DNA from: Burkholderia sp. Nafp2/4-1b
Lineage (GTDB): Bacteria > Pseudomonadota > Gammaproteobacteria > Burkholderiales > Burkholderiaceae
Direction: 5' to 3'
DNA length: 64,000 nucleotides
Assembly: GCF_003635165.1 (NCBI RefSeq)
Contig: NZ_ML058597.1
Location: 62,001 to 126,000, forward strand
The notes beneath the pieces were generated by a model, which searched no databases, was not told the DNA's origin, and saw nothing but the letters and a program-made list of their open reading frames with translations. Position 1 is the stretch's first letter. The number at the start of each line of letters is the position of its first letter. Positions 1 to 13,072 of this stretch are shown here, one piece after another. The position numbers were made by a program, and so were the translations under genes.

Positions 1-450
1 CCGCTGATGTCGATCGTGCAGCTGAACCGGCTGTGGATCGAAGCGAACTTCAAGGAAGGGCAGATCCGTCACATGCGGGTCGGCCAGCCGGTCGACGTGG
101 TGTCGGACCTGTACGGCTCGCGCGTCGTCTATCGCGGTCGCGTGCAGGGCTTCTCGGCAGGCACCGGCAGCGCGTTCTCGATGCTGCCGTCGCAGAACGC
201 GGCCGGCAACTGGATCAAGGTCGTGCAGCGCGTGCCGGTCGTGATCGCGATCGAGCCCGGCGATCTGGCCGCGCATCCGCTGCGCGTCGGGTTGTCGATG
301 CGCGCGACGGTCGACACGCGCAACCGCGACGGCCATGCGCTCGACAGCGAGCCGCCGACGCCGGGTGTCAGCACGCGTATGCACGACGGCGTGGCGAGCG
401 ACGCGGAAGCGGCTGCTGCTGCGATCGTTCGCGAGAATCAGGGCGGGTAG
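1..450 (+). CDS. EmrA/HlyD-type efflux adaptor, C-terminal part (5' truncated by window)
   Basis: The frame is open from base 1, so the visible part is the end of a gene that starts outside the window. The residues resemble the last third of EmrA-type membrane fusion proteins: a barrel segment reading LWIEANFKEGQI, then WIKVVQRVPVVIAIE and a closing PLRVGLSMRATVDT strand. Family members bridge an inner-membrane MFS pump to an outer-membrane channel in multidrug efflux. The tail after the barrel is low-complexity and not conserved. A degraded second copy of the same 3' end lies at about 9018-9175, on the far side of the RiPP island. Confidence 0.85.
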   Translation, partial: PLMSIVQLNRLWIEANFKEGQIRHMRVGQPVDVVSDLYGSRVVYRGRVQGFSAGTGSAFSMLPSQNAAGNWIKVVQRVPVVIAIEPGDLAAHPLRVGLSMRATVDTRNRDGHALDSEPPTPGVSTRMHDGVASDAEAAAAAIVRENQGG

Positions 451-588
451 TACGCGATCGACCGGCGCGACTGATCGCGTCACCCCGCCGGGCTCCGTGT
501 CTGCGTGTTCCTGCCTTGCACGTTGCCGCCCTCCAGCCTCTTTCCCGCCCCGATTTTCGTGTTTCCGCCATCGATGTCGGCGCCGATC
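213..588 (+). repeat. Left copy of imperfect direct repeat flanking the RiPP island
   Basis: The stretch covers the emrA 3' end and its downstream sequence. A run starting at 213 (gatcaaggtcgtgcagcgcg and on to about 241) recurs at 9021. The stop-codon region gagaatcagggcgggtag (433-450) recurs as gagaatcagcgcgagtaa at 9158. A 26-base identity at 563-588 recurs at 9320-9345. The three matches are in the same order on both sides. Confidence 0.7.
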
Positions 589-700: not shown

Positions 701-2143
701 TTAAGGACTTTTATCCTCTAATGTCAGCCTACCAAGGCTCGCCGCGAGCTTGAGGCGAGCCGTTCGCCATTTTGATACGGCAGAGACCCTCTGCTTTTCC
801 GCATCGGCGAGTGCCACCTGTGCATTCAACAGTTCCGTGAACGTTCCGACGCCTTCCCTGTAGCGGCCTCGTGCGATATCGAGCGCTCGTTCTGCGTCGT
901 TGAGCAAGTCCCGCGAGTTGGCGAGGTTGGCTGCATTGGTCTGCACGCCGTGATAGCTCTGCCACACGTCAAGTGACACTTCCAGTTCGGCGTCGCGAAG
1001 CGCCGCCTCCCGTGCATCGGCCTGCGCCTGTGCCTGCTCGGTGCGATAGCCAGACGCAAAGCCTTCAAACAAGGGAATCGTCAACTGCACGCCAATCATG
1101 CTGCTACGGCTGCGTGTTACAGGGATCGACTGCGGCTGCTGTTGATACGACGGATTGTTTTGTGTCAGGCTCGCAACCAGCGAGATGGTTGGACGACCCA
1201 GCGCACGGGCGGCGTCGATATTTGCACGGGCGGCATCAAGCATTGCGCTGGCGGCGGCGAGTTTGGGTTGAAACTGCTTTGCTTCGTTGATCAATTGATC
1301 GATGCCGGTAGCGATCGCGGCCTGCGCATCCGGATCGCGCTCCGGCGACGCGATCTGCATCGCGGTATTTGCGTCAAGCCCCATTGCGACGGCGAGCCTG
1401 CCCGTTGCTCTGTGCACGTCACCTTCTGCGCTGACGCGATCGAGCATCGCACGACGATAGCTCGTACGCGCCTGTAGTTCGTCAGCTAGAGTGCCGGCGC
1501 CCGCCGTGTGCTTCGCGCTCGCTTCCGAGAGGCTTTCACTCGCGATTGACTCGCTGCGCTGTGCGGCAGCGAGCGACGCCTGCATGTCGTGCAACGCGTA
1601 GAACGCCTGTGCCGTGTTGAAGATCACGGTCTGCAGTGTGTTGTTTTGCGTTGCATTCGCGGCGGCTAGCAACGCGCGCACTTGCCGATGTGTAGCGCTA
1701 CGCTTGCCGAAGTCGAACAGTACCCAACTCAAATTCAGCATTCTGTACTTGCTAGATGCGTTCTGCGACTGGCTGATCGAATCCGAGCCGAGCGCACTGT
1801 AGTCGTAGGTAGTGGATAAAGTGTCGCGTTCAATACCCGCGGTCGCGCTTAGCGTGGGCAGGTATGCGGCACCGACGACGCCGAGCGCGGCCGCCTGCTC
1901 CCTCACTTCGCTCCACGCTTGGCGCACGCGCGGGTTTATGCAGATCGCCTGGATGATCGCGTCCTCGAGTTCGAATGGGCGCCCGGCTGGCAGGGCGCGA
2001 CACGACATACCGTGAAGTAAGGGCGAGGCAGGCGCTTCCGACACGTCACCACGTGTGTCGAACACATCGAGCACTTGTGCGTCGGCTCGATGATGACCAA
2101 CCAGCGCTATGGCAGATGCAGTGAGCAGCAGGCAGTATTTCAT
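701..2143 (-). CDS. TolC-family outer membrane channel protein of the RiPP exporter
   Basis: 480 residues with an N-terminal signal peptide (KYCLLLTASAIALVGHHRADA) and the long helical repeats of the outer membrane efflux protein family. The second half contains the usual GVQLTIPLFEGFASGYRTEQ segment. Family role: trimeric outer-membrane channel and periplasmic tunnel for type I secretion. It overlaps the exporter gene upstream by 4 bases and is the last gene of the island operon. The context (C39 ABC exporter plus HlyD adaptor) indicates a dedicated channel rather than the housekeeping TolC. Its GC content is closer to the host than that of the first genes of the operon. Confidence 0.9.
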   Translation of the reverse strand: MKYCLLLTASAIALVGHHRADAQVLDVFDTRGDVSEAPASPLLHGMSCRALPAGRPFELEDAIIQAICINPRVRQAWSEVREQAAALGVVGAAYLPTLSATAGIERDTLSTTYDYSALGSDSISQSQNASSKYRMLNLSWVLFDFGKRSATHRQVRALLAAANATQNNTLQTVIFNTAQAFYALHDMQASLAAAQRSESIASESLSEASAKHTAGAGTLADELQARTSYRRAMLDRVSAEGDVHRATGRLAVAMGLDANTAMQIASPERDPDAQAAIATGIDQLINEAKQFQPKLAAASAMLDAARANIDAARALGRPTISLVASLTQNNPSYQQQPQSIPVTRSRSSMIGVQLTIPLFEGFASGYRTEQAQAQADAREAALRDAELEVSLDVWQSYHGVQTNAANLANSRDLLNDAERALDIARGRYREGVGTFTELLNAQVALADAEKQRVSAVSKWRTARLKLAASLGRLTLEDKSP

Positions 2144-4329: not shown

Positions 4330-5607
4330 TCAGAGTTTGCCGGTGACGCTGTAGAGCGGCTCGAGAACCCATTCAAACAAGCGCCGGCGTTCCTGCAATA
4401 TGTCGGCCTGAAGGGCCACGCCGGATTGCAGCGGTTGCGGCTTGCCGTATACCGTTACTGTTTGTACGTCGAGTGAGGCAGTGACGCGGTAAAACGCACC
4501 ACCGCCGCGAGCGTCGATAGCCTGTATGCCGCTTGTCGACAGTTCGCCAACGGATAGGGCGGTGCGCGCAATCGACGATACGCGCGCGTGGTACTGACCG
4601 AATTTCTGATAGGGATAGGCCCGGTAACGAATCCGTACGGGATCTCCAGGGTGTACGAAGCCGACGGCTGCGCTTGGCACGAATAGGTGGACTTGCCAAC
4701 GGGCACCATCCGGTACGATGCTTGCGGCCGGACTTGCGCTATCGATCATTTGGCCGGGTTCTGCGATTACGGCAGTCGCTAGGCCGGGTTCGGGCGCGGT
4801 GACGAAAAATTCACGCTGAGCTTCGCTCGCGATCATCGACTGCCTGACGTCGATCAGGCTCCGGCTGATCTGCGAGAGTTGATTCTGTTGTTTGAGTGCG
4901 AGGCCAGCGAGATCGTTGGCGGTTTCCTTGAGCACTTGGATCACGTTGGTACGCTCGCGCTGCAAGCCGAGAAGTTTCGACTGCTGATCAAGCATGTCGG
5001 CCTGCCGCTGCTGCAATTGATCGGTCGAGATATAGTCCTGGGCAAGCAAACGGCGATAGCGGGCCACCCCGTCGGCAGCAATCGACGCGCGTTCGTGCTG
5101 AGTCGCGAGCTGAGCGTCGAGACGCGTGACGTCCGCACGCAGGCTGGCAAACTTTGCTTGCAAGGTGTCGCGTTCGTCCCGCTGGAGCAAGCGTGTCTTG
5201 TCTATTTCCTGCCGCAGTAAATTCTGGCGTTGGTGCGCTTGTTCGATCAATGCCGCCTGCGTACGACCCTCGGCGGCGCTCTGTAGATCGGCAGAAATAG
5301 AATAAAGCACCGTCCCGCGCGTCACATGCTGACCCTCGGTCACGGCCTTGCGCAGCACGACGCCCGAATGCTGTGCATAAACCTTGATGAGACCTGTATC
5401 GGGTACGATCACGCCCTCGACCGTAGTGCGCCGTGTGTAGCTACCGAACGTAAACAGTAAAGCCACACCGACTGCCATGAAAGCCATGGTGAATGCGAGT
5501 ACGGTAAACGAAACGGGGCGCACCAGGAGGATCTTCCCAAGTGTCGATCCACGCTGTGCCGCGAGAGCGTCTGGCCGAAACGGCGATTGTTTGGTATCGC
5601 TTGCCAC
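4330..5607 (-). CDS. HlyD-family periplasmic adaptor of the RiPP exporter
   Basis: About 425 residues: short cytoplasmic N-terminus, one membrane helix (VSFTVLAFTMAFMAVGVALLFTF), a lipoyl/barrel segment, a long coiled coil (QAKFASLRADVTRLDAQLAT and following) and a C-terminal beta domain. It resembles CvaA-type colicin V/bacteriocin secretion adaptors. The start is uncertain: the frame has no ATG at a sensible place. GTG at 5607 gives a VASDTKQSPFRP N-terminus like relatives. TTG at 5619 or 5655 are alternatives, and the last would overlap the upstream gene by 35 bases. None has a convincing ribosome binding site, so translational coupling to the hydrolase gene is likely. Confidence 0.88.
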   Translation of the reverse strand: MASDTKQSPFRPDALAAQRGSTLGKILLVRPVSFTVLAFTMAFMAVGVALLFTFGSYTRRTTVEGVIVPDTGLIKVYAQHSGVVLRKAVTEGQHVTRGTVLYSISADLQSAAEGRTQAALIEQAHQRQNLLRQEIDKTRLLQRDERDTLQAKFASLRADVTRLDAQLATQHERASIAADGVARYRRLLAQDYISTDQLQQRQADMLDQQSKLLGLQRERTNVIQVLKETANDLAGLALKQQNQLSQISRSLIDVRQSMIASEAQREFFVTAPEPGLATAVIAEPGQMIDSASPAASIVPDGARWQVHLFVPSAAVGFVHPGDPVRIRYRAYPYQKFGQYHARVSSIARTALSVGELSTSGIQAIDARGGGAFYRVTASLDVQTVTVYGKPQPLQSGVALQADILQERRRLFEWVLEPLYSVTGKL

Positions 5608-5620
5608 GTTGGTTGACAAA

Positions 5621-6748
5621 CTACTTTGACGGTGAAGGATTGAACGACGCCGCAAAAATGCTTTGCACTCGTGCGGTCAAGAACCATTCCATACCACGCT
5701 CGATGATTCCTTGAAGATTTTTAGGCTCTCCTTGGTCGTCTGGGCACGCCAAGAAATGGTCGCCGCATGGAAAATATTCTGTTACAAAAGGGCGATCATG
5801 TGCCACGAGGTATGCAATCCCGGCCTCATAGTCAATTGCAGACGCGCTTTGATCGCGTCCTCCTTGAACCAGGTAAAGCTGCGCCTTGGATGCAAGCACG
5901 TCTTCTGCCGGCGATGCCTTGCCAATTGTTTGCCAATAGGTTCCATCGTATCCTGCAATTGTCCGGTTTGACTCTTGCCCTAAACCCCGGTGCGCATGCT
6001 CCCAACTCGTCAATGTAGACTGTAAACGGTCAAGATAATTATTTGATCCGGTTTCTGGCGCAAAGCTCCAGTTTCCCCAATAAGTTAACGCGGCATGAAT
6101 CGTCGACAAGGTTTGTCCAATTCCGAATCCGGAAATTAACAGAAGATGGGATACTTCACTCGTTGATTTTGCCAAGCGTGATGCGATAGAAACTCCTTCG
6201 GAGCCGGCGACTACCATGAGCGGTTGGCGATTGATCCATCCACGATCTCGCATGTCATCAATGGCGGCTTTTAGTGCATTCAGGCGATCTTGCATATTGG
6301 CCATCTTTTTGAATTCCGATGAACATTCAGAGTTTGTTTCGCGGGAAAAGCGCTCATCGATACCTGGATTCTCAAAGACAATCAGGCGGGCTTTTTCTCT
6401 AAACTGCAGGGCAAACCCTTCCGGTCCCATCGAGTGCCCTTCGTCAGGCAGTGCAGGAAACGCTCCTGTGCATCCGCTACCCGGTAAAAAAATCACTAAT
6501 GGCTTGTCCTTTTTCGATATGTCGGACGAGTAATAGCGGATCTTCTGTCCCTCGGGCATGGTGATTTCACTACCGGAGAATGGAAATACAGAAGATATCC
6601 CTGTTGGGACTGTAAAATCAACTCTTGGAGTGATGGAGTGAGGGCGGCCATTGATGTTCGTATTTTGACCGTGGGTTAAAATCGGCAACGAAAGAAAGAT
6701 GGTTATGAATATTTTTATTGCCATGTTATTTGATTGATTGGAGTACAT
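5621..6748 (-). CDS. Secreted alpha/beta hydrolase-like protein of the RiPP operon
   Basis: 375 residues with an N-terminal signal sequence (MAIKIFITIFLSLPILTHGQ from Met9). An alpha/beta hydrolase fold is suggested by an oxyanion-type LPGSGC motif (about 89-93), a nucleophile elbow AGSEG with Ser183, acid Asp299 (QGGRDQ) and His331 (CGDHF). I do not recognise a named family. It lies between the maturase and the export genes, so possible jobs are trimming or hydrolysis of the exported peptide, or self-protection; these are inferences. Start at 6748 or 6724 (Met9). Its AT-rich codon use differs from the rest of the window and fits horizontal transfer. Confidence 0.75.
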   Translation of the reverse strand: MYSNQSNNMAIKIFITIFLSLPILTHGQNTNINGRPHSITPRVDFTVPTGISSVFPFSGSEITMPEGQKIRYYSSDISKKDKPLVIFLPGSGCTGAFPALPDEGHSMGPEGFALQFREKARLIVFENPGIDERFSRETNSECSSEFKKMANMQDRLNALKAAIDDMRDRGWINRQPLMVVAGSEGVSIASRLAKSTSEVSHLLLISGFGIGQTLSTIHAALTYWGNWSFAPETGSNNYLDRLQSTLTSWEHAHRGLGQESNRTIAGYDGTYWQTIGKASPAEDVLASKAQLYLVQGGRDQSASAIDYEAGIAYLVAHDRPFVTEYFPCGDHFLACPDDQGEPKNLQGIIERGMEWFLTARVQSIFAASFNPSPSK

Positions 6749-6851: not shown

Positions 6852-8165
6852 TTAAATTCGATTCCCGGTCATGTTTTCCTCGATTGTCGCCCAGGGCATG
6901 CCGTGTGAAAGCGCAAACTTCCCCAATTCAATGATGACAGCCTGATGACTTGTGCAAAATAGACTTGCATTGCGAAATTTGTTGATGAAGCTGTATCTGT
7001 GGAGAACGGATTCTCCAAGGCCGGCTCCGCTTTGGCAGATTCCCTTTGCCCCGCACTGCGAGCAAAATGGTGGTACTTCATCGCAGGCCCGATGAAAATC
7101 TGCCACTTTGGGGTGGTTGATGAAATCTGCCAATGTGCTATTCGAAACATTCAATCCAAGATTGAAAAGAGATGGTAGGGTATTGCGAAAATCATCGTCG
7201 ACGGCGATCTCGCCATTTGCCCGGACCGTCATAGCGACAAACCGGTGCGGAGGTGATTCCGATGCATCGGAGGCACAAATGCGTTTTAGAGGATCGGTAA
7301 ACTGTCTTACATAGATATTTCGGTCGCTATCGTTGATCCATTCACTTAGTGTGTCCAGTAAAAATTTACTGGTTCCCTCGGTCAGTTTGATATCGGCTGC
7401 ATCCCTGGTTTGATTGGGCTTCAAGAAGTGGATTCTTTCAATTCCCAGATCGTCTACGAAGTGTCGATATGTCTTGCTGCCATCAAAATCTGGATTTATC
7501 ACACAAATAACCCCCGCAAATACCCCTTCACACGTTTTGTTTTTTTCTATCAGCATTGCGATTGCCTTCGAAACTGCGGAGTGAGTGCCATTTCCTTTTT
7601 TGTCGACTCTGTGAAGATCGTTTTCCCGCGGAGGGCCGTCTAAACTGACGCCTACGGAGACATTGTATTTGGCGAAGATGGAAAGCCATTCTTCATCAAG
7701 CAATGTTGCATTTGTCTGAATGCTGATCCTTAGATCGGTTTGGTCAGAGATGCTGTTTCTGAATATTTCGAGCATGTCGCTCATTCGCGACTTTTTCATC
7801 AAAAGAGGTTCCCCGCCGTGCAGATCGATTTGTATTTCATCAATCGAATGCGCGCGGGTTGCATCCCGCAAATAGCCGGCAAGAGATTTTGCTGTGTCGA
7901 TGTTCAGATAAGGAGGTTGACTTGTGTAGTCATGGTTGCTGCCATTGAAGTAGTAGCAGTAAGTGCAGTCGATATTGCATCGCTCGGTAACCTTGAGTAT
8001 TACTTCCAGTCTGTTTATTTTGTCTATGTTTTTCATTTCTTTGCTGATTTTTAAAAGCGTGGACTCGGTCCAGAATTGATGTCCCAAAGATGCGTCGTTG
8101 CGTGGTGCAAGCTTTCGTGCCAGCAGTGATGTGACATGGGATTTCGTAGAAAACGAAATAAACAT
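6852..8165 (-). CDS. Radical SAM peptide maturase (cyclophane-forming, Xye/triceptide type)
   Basis: 437 residues. Radical SAM core with CNIDCTYC (Cys63, Cys67, Cys70), the following YYFNG, and GGEP at 117-120. A SPASM/twitch-like C-terminus carries Cys361, Cys368, Cys371, Cys377 and Cys404 (CSQCGAKGIC), likely ligands of an auxiliary Fe-S cluster. This layout is typical of peptide-modifying enzymes that join an aromatic ring to a nearby side chain. The adjacent precursor has aromatic-x-N and W-S-K triads, which supports a cyclophane-forming activity. Start choice: ATG at 8165 has no clear ribosome binding site. ATG at 8036 (Met44) puts the first cluster cysteine at residue 20, as in many relatives, and may be the true start. 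AT-rich compared with flanks. Confidence 0.88.
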   Translation of the reverse strand: MFISFSTKSHVTSLLARKLAPRNDASLGHQFWTESTLLKISKEMKNIDKINRLEVILKVTERCNIDCTYCYYFNGSNHDYTSQPPYLNIDTAKSLAGYLRDATRAHSIDEIQIDLHGGEPLLMKKSRMSDMLEIFRNSISDQTDLRISIQTNATLLDEEWLSIFAKYNVSVGVSLDGPPRENDLHRVDKKGNGTHSAVSKAIAMLIEKNKTCEGVFAGVICVINPDFDGSKTYRHFVDDLGIERIHFLKPNQTRDAADIKLTEGTSKFLLDTLSEWINDSDRNIYVRQFTDPLKRICASDASESPPHRFVAMTVRANGEIAVDDDFRNTLPSLFNLGLNVSNSTLADFINHPKVADFHRACDEVPPFCSQCGAKGICQSGAGLGESVLHRYSFINKFRNASLFCTSHQAVIIELGKFALSHGMPWATIEENMTGNRI

Positions 8166-8213
8166 CGTTATCGACGAATATATCGGTACCGCATGGTGCA
8201 GTCACGATTGGTG

Positions 8214-8264
8214 GCGATACGCCGCAAGGCGTATCGCGCAAGACGTTACCCTAATGGGGTAACG
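8214..8264 (-). other. Two tandem hairpins between precursor and maturase genes
   Basis: Two perfect inverted repeats follow the precursor stop codon. The first, 8244-8264, has an 8-base stem CGTTACCC/GGGTAACG with a 5-base loop. The second, 8214-8237, has a 10-base stem GCGATACGCC/GGCGTATCGC around a GCAA tetraloop. Neither is followed by a U tract on the minus strand, so a full intrinsic terminator is unlikely. They could stabilise the precursor mRNA 3' end or lower read-through, giving more substrate peptide than enzyme. Confidence 0.65.
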
Positions 8265-8273
8265 GGATGTCGA

Positions 8274-8447
8274 TTATCGCCAAGCTTTCGACCAGGTGGC
8301 GTTGGCGAACCAACCGCGAGAATTGGCTTGCGATGAGGCGCCACCCCCGACCAGGGCAAGCAATTCGGAATCGAGCTCGACGGGAGCCTCGCGTTCTACT
8401 TGCTGCGCACCAACCATCATTTCATTTTTGAAAGCATGCAGATCCAT
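8274..8447 (-). CDS. RiPP precursor peptide, double-glycine leader and cyclophane core
   Basis: A 57-residue gene too short for the usual ORF cut-off. ATG at 8447 is preceded by AAAAGGTAATCC, a usable ribosome binding site. Residues 1-35 form a leader ending ELLALVGG, which matches the bacteriocin double-glycine rule (E-8, L-7, hydrophobic at -4, GG). A third Gly36 leaves the exact cut ambiguous by one residue. The core ends SRGWFANATWSKAWR and holds the triads F47-A48-N49 and W52-S53-K54, the aromatic-x-N and W-S-K types modified by cyclophane-forming radical SAM enzymes. It lies directly upstream of such an enzyme and of a C39 exporter. Predicted product: a 21-22 residue peptide with two strained three-residue rings. 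Confidence 0.85.
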   Translation of the reverse strand: MDLHAFKNEMMVGAQQVEREAPVELDSELLALVGGGASSQANSRGWFANATWSKAWR

Positions 8448-8787: not shown

Positions 8788-9017
8788 TGGTATTGGGTCG
8801 GCGGTTGTAATTATGAAAGGCGGTGTTGCATAAATTGAATGTGACGATGTGGTAGTCGCCGTGTTCACTACCGCAGACAATGCGAATGGAACATCCGAGT
8901 CCGCCATGTGGTCGACCAGAGCCGGGCCGTCGTGCAGGCGGCCGCACAGTTCGCGCTCGCACTCCGGAACCGAAGCGCGACGATCGTCGTGTCGGTCAAT
9001 AAACGATCGGCCAGCAA

Positions 9018-9175
9018 CCAGATCAAGGTCGTGCAGCGCGTGCCGGTCGAGATTGCGATCGATTTCCGCGATCTGGTTGTGCGTCCGCTCGGGGCGGACG
9101 GTCGGTCGCGCGATGGTTGGTACGCGCACCGGGACGCCACTCGGGACAGTCATCGGTGAGAATCAGCGCGAGTAA
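9018..9175 (+). pseudogene. Degraded emrA C-terminal remnant
   Basis: In one frame the sequence reads NQIKVVQRVPVEIAIDFRDL followed by VVRPLG, matching IKVVQRVPVVIAIEPGDL of the intact gene at the window start. A stop-codon region nearly identical to the left copy follows (9158-9175). Between these matches it is about 80 bases shorter than the intact gene, and nothing upstream resembles the rest of EmrA. It is therefore a fragment, not a gene. Confidence 0.7.
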
Positions 9176-9345
9176 CGGGAATTGGGCCGGCCGGGCGGCC
9201 GATCGCGACGATTGGCCTGGAACGCGAGCCCCGGAGCCACGCCCGGCACCTAAAGGCCGCCGCGCCGCTCAGCAAGCCTTCCCGTTTTTGCCACTGTCCC
9301 GCCCACCCAACTTTCGCATTTCCGCCATCGATGTCGGCGCCGATC
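9021..9345 (+). repeat. Right copy of imperfect direct repeat flanking the RiPP island
   Basis: Partner of the repeat at 213-588: three matching blocks in the same order (9021-9049, 9158-9175 and 9320-9345), with deletions between them. Together the two copies bracket the AT-rich RiPP island. Confidence 0.7.
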
Positions 9346-9472
9346 AAACGCATGTCGGGTTTGAGACATCGACGCCCCCGCCTCCGGGACTAATCTCGAA
9401 CAGCACGTTGCGTGCGTGTCCGCATCCGCCGACGCAGCGCGACGCGATCAAACGAGACATGGAGACAATACG

Positions 9473-10669
9473 ATGAGCAGCAATCGAGGTGTCGTCTATC
9501 TTGGGCCGGGCCAGGTCGAGGTCCAGAAGATCGATTATCCGAAGATGGTCGATCCGACCGGCCGCGCGATCGGCCACGGCGTGATCCTGAAAGTGGTCAG
9601 CACGAACATCTGCGGTTCCGATCAACATATGGTGCGCGGCCGCACGACCGCCCCGGTCGGTCTCGTGCTCGGTCACGAGATCACGGGCGAAGTGGTCGAA
9701 GTGGGCCGCGACGTCGAGACGCTGAAGCTCGGCGATCTCGTGTCGGTGCCGTTCAACGTCGCGTGCGGCCGCTGCGCGATGTGCAAGGACACGCATACGG
9801 GCGTCTGCCTGAACGTGAACCCGTCGCGTGCCGGCGGCGCATACGGCTACGTCGACATGGGCGGCTGGATCGGCGGCCAGGCCGAATACGTGCTCGTGCC
9901 GTACGCCGACTTCAACCTGCTGAAATTCCCGGATCGCGACCAGGCTATGGCGAAGATCCGCGACCTGACCTGCCTGTCCGACATTCTGCCGACCGGTTAT
10001 CACGGCGCGGTGAGCGCGGGCGTGAAGCCGGGCTCGACGGTCTACATCGCGGGCGCGGGCCCGGTCGGGATGGCGGCGGCCGCATCGGCGCGCCTGCTCG
10101 GCGCGGCGGTGACGATCGTCGGCGACATGAACGCGGAACGCCTCGCGCACGCGCGGGCGATGGGCTTCGAGACGGTCGACCTGTCGAAGGATGCGTCGCT
10201 CGGCGAGCAGATCGAACAGATCCTCGGCGTGCCGGAGATCGACTGCGCGGTCGACTGCGTCGGCTTCGAGGCGCACGGCCACGGTTCGTCGGGCCATTCC
10301 GAGGAAGCACCCGCGACGGTGCTGAACTCGCTGATGGAAATCACGCGCCCGGCCGGCGCGATCGGCATCCCGGGCCTGTACGTGACGGACGATCCGGGCG
10401 CGAAGGACAAGGCCGCGCAGCACGGCAGCCTGAGCATCCGCTTCGGCCTCGGCTGGGCGAAGTCGCACTCGTTCTTCACGGGCCAGACGCCGGTGCTGAA
10501 GTACAACCGCAACCTGATGCAGGCCATCCTGTTCGACCGTCTGCCGATCGCGAAGATCGTCAACGTCGAGGTGATCTCGCTCGATCAGGCGCCGGAAGGC
10601 TACAAGAAGTTCGATGGCGGCGCACCGCGCAAATTCGTGATCGATCCGCACGGGTTGCTCGCGGCCTGA
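9473..10669 (+). CDS. fdhA: Glutathione-independent formaldehyde dehydrogenase
   Basis: 398 residues, the usual length of the Pseudomonas putida-type enzyme, which oxidises formaldehyde to formate with tightly bound NAD. Zinc-dependent medium-chain dehydrogenase: catalytic Cys47 (TNICGSDQH) and His68-Glu69 (LGHEITG), structural zinc Cys98, 101, 104 and 112, NAD fold around AGAGPVGMAAA. The ATG at 9473 follows a GGAGA site; longer versions of the frame lack one. It probably disposes of formaldehyde released when glycine betaine-derived dimethylglycine and sarcosine are demethylated by enzymes encoded further right, though it is not in that operon. Confidence 0.93.
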   Translation: MSSNRGVVYLGPGQVEVQKIDYPKMVDPTGRAIGHGVILKVVSTNICGSDQHMVRGRTTAPVGLVLGHEITGEVVEVGRDVETLKLGDLVSVPFNVACGRCAMCKDTHTGVCLNVNPSRAGGAYGYVDMGGWIGGQAEYVLVPYADFNLLKFPDRDQAMAKIRDLTCLSDILPTGYHGAVSAGVKPGSTVYIAGAGPVGMAAAASARLLGAAVTIVGDMNAERLAHARAMGFETVDLSKDASLGEQIEQILGVPEIDCAVDCVGFEAHGHGSSGHSEEAPATVLNSLMEITRPAGAIGIPGLYVTDDPGAKDKAAQHGSLSIRFGLGWAKSHSFFTGQTPVLKYNRNLMQAILFDRLPIAKIVNVEVISLDQAPEGYKKFDGGAPRKFVIDPHGLLAA

Positions 10670-10692
10670 CGCACGAACGGCACGCAAGCAGC

Positions 10693-10725
10693 GGGCGGCA
10701 CCGGAAACGGCGCCGCCCGTTTTTT
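10693..10725 (+). terminator. Intrinsic terminator after fdhA
   Basis: GGGCGGC (10693-10699) pairs with GCCGCCC (10712-10718) and is followed by GTTTTTT. Confidence 0.85.
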
Positions 10726-10785
10726 CTGTGGGCATCCGCGACGCGCAGCGCGATCAGCGGGATCGCGCCGAATTCCTGCGCGCGC

Positions 10786-11643
10786 TCAGTGCCCGCGATA
10801 GAGGTCGGCCAATTGAGTCTCGGTCGCGGCAGCCCGGCGCCCGTGATGCGCATGCGCGCTCACGCGGCGGACCGCATGCGGGCGCCGGGCCGGCACTCCG
10901 CCTTTCCAGTCGGCCACGCGAATGCCGCTGCGCGCGCTGGCCGGTTCGCGCGCGGGCGGCGCGTGCCGTGCGAGCGTCGTCGTCGCGTGTCCTCCGGTTG
11001 CGCGCCCGCTCGCGCGCCGGCTCGTGCCCGTATCGGTGTCGCGCGGTTGCGCGGCTGCGACCGCGACCTGCGTGTCGTCGCTCGGCTGAAGTGCGTCGGC
11101 CGGCGCGCGTACGACCGGCGCCGTCGGTGCGTCGCTCCGCTGGAGCGCGTAGGCCTGCGCGGGCGCGACCCCCACCGTCGGTGCGTTGACCGGATGCACG
11201 CCGGCGTCGATCGTCGCCGGGCCCGGCGCGCCTTGTCCGCGACAGACGGGATCCGACCGGCACGTCCGGTCGAACGTCACATAGCCGCCGACCAGCAGCA
11301 CGACGGTAAGAATGCTGAGCAGCGGCGCGCTCGATGGGCGCGGCCGCCGGATCGCCGCGCCGCGTACCGCGGCCGCGATGCGCGACGACCAGTTCGGAAC
11401 GGGCTGCTCCGAGTGCGGCGGATGGGCGGCATGCGATGACCGTGCCTCGCCGGATCGGTTGTCCAATCGCATGAACGGCCAGTCGCCCAGCCCGCAGACG
11501 GGGCACTGCTCGGTGGCGCGGAACGCCATGAAGCCGCATTGCCGGCAGCGCTGGCTGATGGCATCGCGCGACTCCACACGCTGGTTCAGTACGCCGCGCA
11601 GCGTATCGCGCGGGCGGACTCTCTGACTGAGCAGGACTCGCAT
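10786..11643 (-). CDS. Zinc-ribbon membrane protein of unknown function
   Basis: 285 residues from the ATG at 11643, which has a GAGGTAG site. The N-terminal third has a paired-cysteine zinc-ribbon-like motif (CRQCGF and, 14 residues on, CPVCG). Then comes one hydrophobic segment (LLSILTVVLLVGGYVTF) and a long Ala/Arg/Pro-rich, probably disordered C-terminal region containing a CRSDPVC pair. I recognise no named family. It starts 7 bases after the upstream regulator gene ends, so the two are probably co-transcribed. The cysteine pairs suggest a metal or redox sensor, but that is a guess. Confidence 0.6.
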   Translation of the reverse strand: MRVLLSQRVRPRDTLRGVLNQRVESRDAISQRCRQCGFMAFRATEQCPVCGLGDWPFMRLDNRSGEARSSHAAHPPHSEQPVPNWSSRIAAAVRGAAIRRPRPSSAPLLSILTVVLLVGGYVTFDRTCRSDPVCRGQGAPGPATIDAGVHPVNAPTVGVAPAQAYALQRSDAPTAPVVRAPADALQPSDDTQVAVAAAQPRDTDTGTSRRASGRATGGHATTTLARHAPPAREPASARSGIRVADWKGGVPARRPHAVRRVSAHAHHGRRAAATETQLADLYRGH

Positions 11644-11650
11644 GGTGTTG

Positions 11651-13072
11651 CTACCTCGTCTGTCGTTGCCGCCCCACGAGCATCCCGATGGTCTGCATCG
11701 CGTTCTCGACGGCTGGGGTCCACGGCCGGCCATAGTTCAGCCGGACGTAACGGTGAAAGGCGCCGGTCGCAGAAAAGATCGGCCCGGGCGCGACGCTCAC
11801 GCCGTGCTCCAGCGCTTCGCTGAACAACTGCATCGCGTCCACGTGTGGCGGCAATTCAATCCACAGGAAATACCCGCCGCGCGGGGCGTACACCTGCGTG
11901 TCGGGCGGAAAGTACGCGCGCACGGCGGCCAGCATCTGCGCCTGGTGCGCGGCCAGGTTGCGCCGGAGCCTGCGCAGGAAGCGGTCGTACCCGCCGTTGC
12001 GCAAGTAGCTGCAGAGGGCCAGCTGCGCGGGCACGTCGGCGGCCGGCGCGCTCGCGTTCTTCACGGCCCGGATCTGCTTCGCATAGCGTCCGGCCGCGAC
12101 CCAGCCGATCCGGAAGCCGGGCGCGAGGCACTTCGAGAACGAGCTGCAATGGAGCACGAGCCCGCTGTCGTCGTACAGCTTCGCGGGGCGCGTCGGGGTC
12201 GGGCCGAAATGCAGTTCGCCGAATACGTCGTCCTCGATCAGCGGCACCTGGCGCGACGCGAGCAGCTCGATCAGCGCGCGCTTGCGCTCGTCCGACAGTG
12301 TCGCGCCGGTCGGGTTGTGGAATGAGGTCATGAACCAGCACGCGCGCACCGGATGCGAGTCGAGCGCTTCGGCGAGTGCATCGAGATCGAGGCCGGTGCG
12401 CGGATCGACGGGGATTTCGACGGCGGTCAGATGCAGCTGCTGCACGGCCTGCAGCGCTGCAGGGAACGCAGGGCGTTCGATCGCGACGATGTCGCCGGGG
12501 CGCGTGAGCGCCTGCAGGCACAGCGTCAGCGCTTCGGCGGCACCGGTCGTGATGACGATCTCGTCCATCGGCAACGACGCGCCCGCATTCAGGTAGCGCA
12601 ACGCAATCTGGCGGCGCAGCGCTTCATGGCCCGGCGGCAAGCCGGCCAGCAGTTTCGCGCGGTCCATGCCGCGGGCCGCCGCCGCCATGTATCGCCACAG
12701 GCTGCTCATCGGAAACAACGAATAGCTGGCGAACGCGGAGCCGAGCGGCACGATGTCGTCGCGCTTGAGCGAGTCGACCAACTGGAACAGCGTACCGTCG
12801 TCGCCGGTCTGCGATGCGCCCGGTTGGCGCGGCACGTCGGGGGCAGCGCGCAGGCGCTTGTCATGAAGGTTCGAAACGAAATAACCGGAACGGGCGCGCG
12901 CGGTGATCAGGCCCTCGCTTTCGAGCGTGTAGTACGCGCGAAAAACGGTGGAAGGACTTACACGGTAAGCACGGCATGCCGAACGCACCGTAGGGATGCG
13001 TGCACCTGCCGCCAGGTCGCCGCGACGAATCGCGTCGGCAATCGTCTGTGCAAGCTCCGCGTATCGCTTCAT
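11651..13072 (-). CDS. MocR/PdxR-type regulator (GntR DNA-binding domain fused to aminotransferase fold)
   Basis: 473 residues. The N-terminal winged helix (AELAQTIADAIRRGDLAAGA through SPSTVFRAYYTLESEGLI) is followed by a full type I aminotransferase-like domain with the PLP-lysine motif FSKCLAPGFRIGW. Such proteins use PLP or its adducts as effector and usually control PLP synthesis, GABA or amino-acid use. I cannot tell which target applies here. ATG at 13072 follows GGAGGG; the longer frame upstream has no site. It is divergent from the secreted protein at 13394 and precedes the zinc-ribbon protein. Confidence 0.85.
   Translation of the reverse strand: MKRYAELAQTIADAIRRGDLAAGARIPTVRSACRAYRVSPSTVFRAYYTLESEGLITARARSGYFVSNLHDKRLRAAPDVPRQPGASQTGDDGTLFQLVDSLKRDDIVPLGSAFASYSLFPMSSLWRYMAAAARGMDRAKLLAGLPPGHEALRRQIALRYLNAGASLPMDEIVITTGAAEALTLCLQALTRPGDIVAIERPAFPAALQAVQQLHLTAVEIPVDPRTGLDLDALAEALDSHPVRACWFMTSFHNPTGATLSDERKRALIELLASRQVPLIEDDVFGELHFGPTPTRPAKLYDDSGLVLHCSSFSKCLAPGFRIGWVAAGRYAKQIRAVKNASAPAADVPAQLALCSYLRNGGYDRFLRRLRRNLAAHQAQMLAAVRAYFPPDTQVYAPRGGYFLWIELPPHVDAMQLFSEALEHGVSVAPGPIFSATGAFHRYVRLNYGRPWTPAVENAMQTIGMLVGRQRQTR

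Follow-up and report, generated by a model that had tools for sequence, protein, structure and literature searches.

The operon and its genomic setting

Analysis of the window (i.e. the whole stretch of 64,000 nucleotides of Burkholderia sp. Nafp2/4-1b DNA) revealed a minus-strand operon in which a precursor gene (A) comes first, followed by genes for an XyeB-like radical SAM enzyme (B), a secreted hydrolase-like protein (C), an HlyD-family adaptor (D), a C39-ABC exporter (E) and a TolC-family channel (F). The features are:

8274..8447 (-), precursor gene A, 57 aa, ATG start, open reading frame with a ribosome site
Precursor A, leader, residues 1-35, ending ELLALVGG (E28 to G34-G35)
Precursor A, linker, residues 36-45, GASSQANSRG
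Precursor A, core, WFANATWSKAWR, rings predicted at F47-N49 and W52-K54
8185..8276 (-), intercistronic stretch with two predicted hairpins, from the alignment of the window with G034 and G051
6852..8036 (-), gene B, XyeB-like radical SAM maturase (ORF given as 6852-8165; conserved part from about codon 44)
5621..6748 (-), gene C, 375 aa, hydrophobic N-terminus resembling a signal peptide
4330..5655 (-), gene D, periplasmic adaptor of the HlyD family, listed with a TTG start and 441 aa
2140..4314 (-), gene E, 724 aa, ABC exporter whose N-terminal part is a peptidase C39 domain (TECGLACLAM stretch)
701..2143 (-), gene F, 480 aa, outer-membrane channel of the TolC family, OEP match
549..588 (+), imperfect direct repeat, left copy, 40 bases, 90%, near the island edge
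9306..9345 (+), imperfect direct repeat, right copy, 40 bases, 90%, near the island edge

Two genomes from another genus, G034 and G051, have all six genes in identical order (identities to the window, G034/G051: A, 68/68%; B, about 79-80/74-75%; C, 68/68%; D, 81/78%; E, 86/84%; F, 78/76%). The peptidase domain of gene E (PF03412) scored 121 bits against a cut-off of 22, and this exporter accompanies a leader ending in ELLALVGG, as expected of C39-exported double-glycine peptides. The family assignments and the leader end agree with an earlier note on this DNA, in which the locus had been read as a RiPP precursor with a double-glycine leader next to a radical SAM/SPASM-like gene of the Xye or a related type, with C39-type export.

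The listed ORF of the enzyme starts 108 bp 3' of gene A. Since similarity to related enzymes begins near codon 44 (position 8036), this ORF appears to be too long at its N-terminus, and the gap between precursor and enzyme is probably about 237 bp, holding the two predicted hairpins. Most pairs of the first hairpin are kept across the three genomes, some via G-U changes, and all ten pairs of the second are unchanged; of the four pairs that show changes on both sides, three lie in a third, weaker stem. A 240-base stretch of the window gave a folding z-score of -4.9, i.e. 4.9 standard deviations below shuffles. The hairpins perhaps set the precursor-to-enzyme ratio. A plain terminator between A and B was rejected, as there is no T run. 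An Rfam search of the window at the gathering thresholds gave no matches.

Relative to Burkholderia arboris, the cluster is an insertion of 8-9 kb, i.e. an island. Positions 1-449 and 9302 onward of the window match B. arboris NZ_CP101525 (the one record aligned) at 91 and 95%, respectively, and the flanks are separated by 88 bases in that record and by 8852 in the window. The G+C content is 0.46-0.62 inside the cluster and 0.64-0.72 in 1-kb steps over positions 9001-13000. Besides the 40-base repeat listed above, a second imperfect direct repeat (136 bases, 79%; 200-335 and 9008-9139) lies near both edges. No tRNA gene was found in the window. The island is flanked by the end of a CusB/HlyD-type adaptor gene (7-450, plus strand) and by a match to the formaldehyde dehydrogenase gene fdhA (9416-10669, plus strand).

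The precursor, the maturase and their relatives

Precursor A (MDLHAFKNEMMVGAQQVEREAPVELDSELLALVGGGASSQANSRGWFANATWSKAWR; 8274-8447, minus strand) reads exactly as the earlier note had given it, with an ATG, the sequence AAAAGG seven bases 5' of it, and ELLALVGG before the core. Its counterparts in G034 and G051 (56 residues) lie in the same place, 5' of the orthologous enzyme genes, and end in AWFANSSFSKRF and AWFANASFSKRF, respectively. The three pairwise dN/dS values (0.163, 0.202 and 0.189; Nei-Gojobori) refer to codons 1-54, the codons beyond 54, where the precursor ends differ, having been left out; for the core codons 46-54 alone the ratio is unusable in two pairs, where synonymous change is saturated. 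In this three-genome comparison the precursor is under purifying selection. The pattern [FWY]xNxx[FWY]x[KR], at most four residues from a stop, was found in one of the 2100 stop-to-stop frames of the window, namely precursor A, a count that serves as a check of specificity and not as an independent test, the pattern having been derived from the same peptides. A chance ORF is ruled out by the dN/dS values together with this single match; the 57-residue precursor gene is real. The peptide had no match among PDB sequences. A lacticin-481-type lantibiotic model gave a weak match in two of the ten precursors scanned (best E 0.001, 19.2 bits, cut-off 46), which points to a generic type of leader.

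Maturase B contains CxxxCxxC and four C-terminal cysteines in common with XyeB of Xenorhabdus bovienii, to which it is 35% identical, and matches the radical SAM family (58.4 bits). Its best NCBIfam model is XyeB, at 271.3 bits (about 179 below the cut-off of 450); the same model gave 283.5, 273.4 and 558.8 bits for the enzymes of G034, G051 and X. bovienii. The scores on the DarE and DynA models were 73 bits (cut-off 650) and 103 bits (cut-off 450). In an enzyme tree of 27 rows the window enzyme is joined with those of G034 and G051 at 100/100, and this clade stands beside the enzymes of genera g11 and g15 with weak support (81/73). On midpoint rooting it falls into a 19-row XyeB half, which holds one named XyeB and is separated from YhhB/FxsB at 100/99. 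The low identity to XyeB, the score under the cut-off and the weak placement in the tree suggest that the enzyme may differ in its choice of ring sites.

Most known Xye clusters come from Xenorhabdus, Yersinia and Erwinia. Among 398 genomes of the family, 23 had an enzyme match at E<=1e-25: the own genome, G034, G051, eight at 33-37% identity and twelve weaker ones. Within the genus, the enzyme was found in its own genome and in none of the 64 others (1/65), while two of the three genomes of the genus of G034 had a match. Conservation of the peptide beside homologous maturases, on which the earlier note had made its reading depend, was observed at 10 of the 11 loci with a near-full-length enzyme of at least 33% identity (own locus included), each with exactly one frame that fits the core pattern. 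The exception is G130, whose enzyme is the closest of the distant ones (37%) and which has neither such a peptide nor transporter matches nearby. An eleventh precursor, ending in GAGGNWFANATWTKSI, lies in G251, 5' of an enzyme gene cut short at about 140 codons. This cluster is decaying, with the precursor at L025 1149-1421, the end NWFANATWTKSI and the enzyme gene truncated. No such precursor was found with a loose filter in the short loci of the 11 weaker family matches besides G251.

Frames with the core pattern were absent from the loci of X. bovienii, Caulobacter, Paracoccus and B. arboris and from two fragment loci; three frames of a Pseudoalteromonas locus fit it, but are not precursor-like. 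In a class-wide XyeB search of 369 genomes, four reached E<=1e-55, the own genome included and none over the cut-off, and five loci around other class-wide matches contained no precursor with this core. The order-wide search returned 3 of 399 genomes, again with the own one, the other two enzymes falling into the YhhB/FxsB half of the tree. A scan of genome contigs added one relative, a Caulobacter MAG (L004 8653-8916), in which a related enzyme (about 36%) follows a GG-leader peptide with a different core, KIDIDAFGRIFGRIRF. In genome G722 (L046 836-1123) an XyeB-like enzyme scoring 333 bits lies next to a GG peptide that ends in EVFGKWSRS, perhaps another relative of this type. A related C39 ABC-TolC pair (76 and 70% DNA identity) lies among insertion sequences on a plasmid of Paraburkholderia ginsengisoli (L043 6427-10057), a record absent from the 29 plasmids with an enzyme match. 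Within the open-licence library searched, triceptides and Burkholderia came together in one review, whose passages on this genus deal with other peptides.

Predicted rings, processing and target

The eleven precursors, from as many Burkholderiaceae genomes, all carry F-x-N-x-x-[W/F]-x-[K/R]-x-hydrophobic close to their C-terminal end. Because loose filters on leader or triad were used to collect them and the pattern was in turn derived from this set, the count is descriptive and not blind. F47 and N49 are invariant in all eleven. Position 52 is W in nine and F in two, the second acceptor at position 54 is K in five and R in six, interchanging, and position 56 is always hydrophobic (M in four, F in three, I in two, W and L in one each). 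Position 46 is W in four (the window, G034, G051 and G251), A in three, V in three and G in one. The window core ends in -AWR, whereas the last residue is hydrophobic in the other ten precursors, and its W56 has no residue two places further on. Maturase B would link the aromatic rings of F47 and W52 to the beta carbons of N49 and K54, respectively. Because both triads are kept throughout, W46 varies and W56 lacks a residue at i+2, the best prediction is that FAN and WSK form the rings and that W56-R57 stays linear, as the earlier note had proposed. The residue types also match published links: XncB is reported to connect C4 of Phe with C-beta of Asn, and C6 of Trp with C-beta of Arg or Asn (PMC11002830), and passages of PMC9055067 describe for darobactin a Trp3-Lys5 C-C link, with Arg instead in a Yersinia variant, and cores of the form WNWx(K/R)xF.

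Taken together, the six genes quite probably constitute a complete biosynthesis and export operon for an exported two-ring cyclophane-type peptide (triceptide). That the maturase makes other links (one ring only, a ring on W46, an ether or an epimerised residue) is decidedly unlikely. The enzyme does score under the XyeB cut-off, ether-forming radical SAM/SPASM enzymes of the DarE type exist (as the passages of PMC9055067 on DarE show), and W46 is kept in four precursors; against this, position 46 is A, V or G in 7/11 while both triads persist in 11/11, by which a W46 ring was rejected, and the DarE score is far below its cut-off.

As to export, the C39 domain would cut after G34-G35 during exit via ABC-HlyD-TolC, leaving 22 residues. 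The distance from the GG site to the first triad is about eight residues longer in the window clade than in g11/g15 and X. bovienii, and R44 is kept in all three members (3/3). A cut at R44 would give products of 13 (window, GWFANATWSKAWR) or 12 residues; in X. bovienii, 12 residues follow the GG. Calculated monoisotopic masses with both predicted rings (4.03 Da below the linear forms) are 2434.13 for the 22-mer, 1575.74 for the 13-mer and 1419.64 for the 12-mer lacking R57. The longer linker, the retained arginine and the product length led us to propose gene C as a trimming enzyme: a second cut near R44, perhaps made by this secreted hydrolase-like protein, would release 12-13 residues, with R57 possibly trimmed too, a step whose likelihood we place slightly below even.

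Gene C may be called alpha/beta-hydrolase-like at best. S183, D299 and H331 are invariant across the three homologues, two of which weakly match the EstD esterase model (window, 17.5 bits; cut-off 600). The best PDB match was a weak one to Lipase B (E 0.035 alone, 0.0089 as a profile), no Pfam match was obtained under 0.1, and an AlphaFold2 model from three sequences had a mean pLDDT of 32.5. Searches of the peptidase families gave no match for gene C, and none of the aspartyl protease families matched the gene C products of the window, G034 and G051 (0/3). In contrast, the third gene matched aspartyl protease PF13650 above the cut-off in all four Xye-like clusters tested (X. bovienii, L033, L034 and L037). 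Gene C is present in 5 of 299 family genomes, and since all five hold complete clusters (three) or fragments of clusters (G046 and G090), it goes with this system within the genomes searched. In G046 and G090 (genus g8, 3.3-3.6 Mb) pieces of gene C and the start of an HlyD gene were seen, with generic ABC ATPases only (L065 9157-10094; L066 8094-8775). A tblastn search of plasmids with gene C and precursor A gave no match. That gene C is a self-protection enzyme or tailoring hydrolase instead of a trimming protease is quite possible, given that it matches no peptidase family and that no other immunity gene was recognised, none being evident among the six operon genes. However, it occupies the slot of the aspartyl protease of the other clusters, and the longer linker with its conserved R44 likewise argues for trimming. 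A second BamA copy as the means of self-protection was rejected, the own genome showing two Omp85 matches only, tentatively read as BamA and TamA.

The core ends W-S-K-A-W(-R), F-S-K-R-F, W-S-R-A-M and W-N-K-S-F resemble the W-x-(K/R)-x-F of darobactin, and for xenorceptide A2 a review (PMC12971899) reports insertion into BamA in the form of a strand; BamA is therefore the leading guess for the target. The product would block BamA of competing Gram-negative bacteria, like xenorceptide and darobactin. Of the possible roles, that of an antibacterial directed at BamA is, by analogy, the most likely, although it falls somewhat short of an even chance. A signal or other secreted factor without antibacterial action, with the likeness arising by chance or enzyme preference, is a real alternative, if a doubtful one. 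W-x-(K/R) is the triad that such enzymes modify, so that the likeness may reflect enzyme choice; the lack of an evident immunity gene among the six genes and the terminal Arg of the window core also fit this reading. Yet a hydrophobic residue recurs two places past the triad, as the last or last-but-one residue, in X. bovienii XyeA, in all eleven precursors (W56, then R57, in the window) and in the darobactin cores described in PMC9055067, which the triad preference of an enzyme alone fails to explain.

The broadest form of the antibacterial reading is somewhat unlikely as a whole. It would make these clusters a separate Burkholderiaceae branch of BamA-blocking peptides, with two cyclophanes, a two-residue spacer and a darobactin-like C-terminal half, missed by the XyeA and XyeB models; in the window clade a new serine-hydrolase-type peptidase would replace the aspartyl protease and free 12-13 residues at the conserved arginine. 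BamA is an exposed, essential target of Gram-negative bacteria against which few natural scaffolds have been reported. Natural cores that keep two triads and vary in the K/R acceptor, the F/W donor and the last residue would be useful for structure-activity work, and the exchange between two secreted genes of protease type would allow the role of the third gene in Xye-like clusters to be tested directly.

Comparison with known systems

Beyond what the earlier note had described, the locus has a different third gene and a darobactin-like core end, and belongs to a wider Burkholderiaceae group. Curated membership of the Xye family was not borne out: the NCBI XyeA model (TIGR04495/TIGR04496 Xye families) matched none of nine Burkholderiaceae precursors, the window peptide giving nothing at E<=10 and X. 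bovienii XyeA 69.3 bits, and the XyeB score lies below its cut-off. As judged from its sequences, the system is a neighbour of the Xye triceptides and no curated member. That it is an ordinary Xye cluster merely scored too low by the NCBI models is unlikely; the order precursor, maturase, third gene, HlyD, C39 ABC is that annotated in X. bovienii NZ_FO818638 (xyeA-xyeB-hypothetical-HlyD-C39 ABC) and the enzyme falls into the same half of the tree, but both models fail, the third gene is of another type and the triads differ in number and spacing.

The Xye triceptides (xenorceptides) resemble the window system in gene order, double-glycine leader and aromatic-x-N/K/R triads, and the X. bovienii precursor, which ends in SGG-WVNVFARWDKAI, shares with it a W-x-K-A-hydrophobic end. 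They differ in that X. bovienii has three triads, whereas the window has two with a two-residue spacer, a 22-residue core with an inserted linker, the hydrolase-like gene C, a TolC gene of its own and an enzyme only 35% identical to XyeB.

The g11/g15 clusters (G222, G210, G168, G062, G257, G204 and G015) show the window pattern, with the core F-x-N-A-T-W-x-[K/R]-x-hydrophobic, and possess an HlyD and ABC exporter related to those of the window (shown for L034 and L037). Their enzymes are 33-35% identical to that of the window; unlike the window, they encode an aspartyl protease as the third gene in the three clusters tested (L033, L034 and L037), and their precursors are without the inserted linker.

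Membership of the daropeptides was rejected on the DarE score and the lack of WxW in the core. The window core resembles darobactin (DarA/DarE) in the W-x-(K/R)-x-F end, which in darobactin bears a Trp-Lys/Arg C-C link (PMC9055067). According to the same paper, darobactin has as its first ring an ether between two Trp residues, fused to the second ring, and the rings predicted for the window peptide differ from it in this respect.
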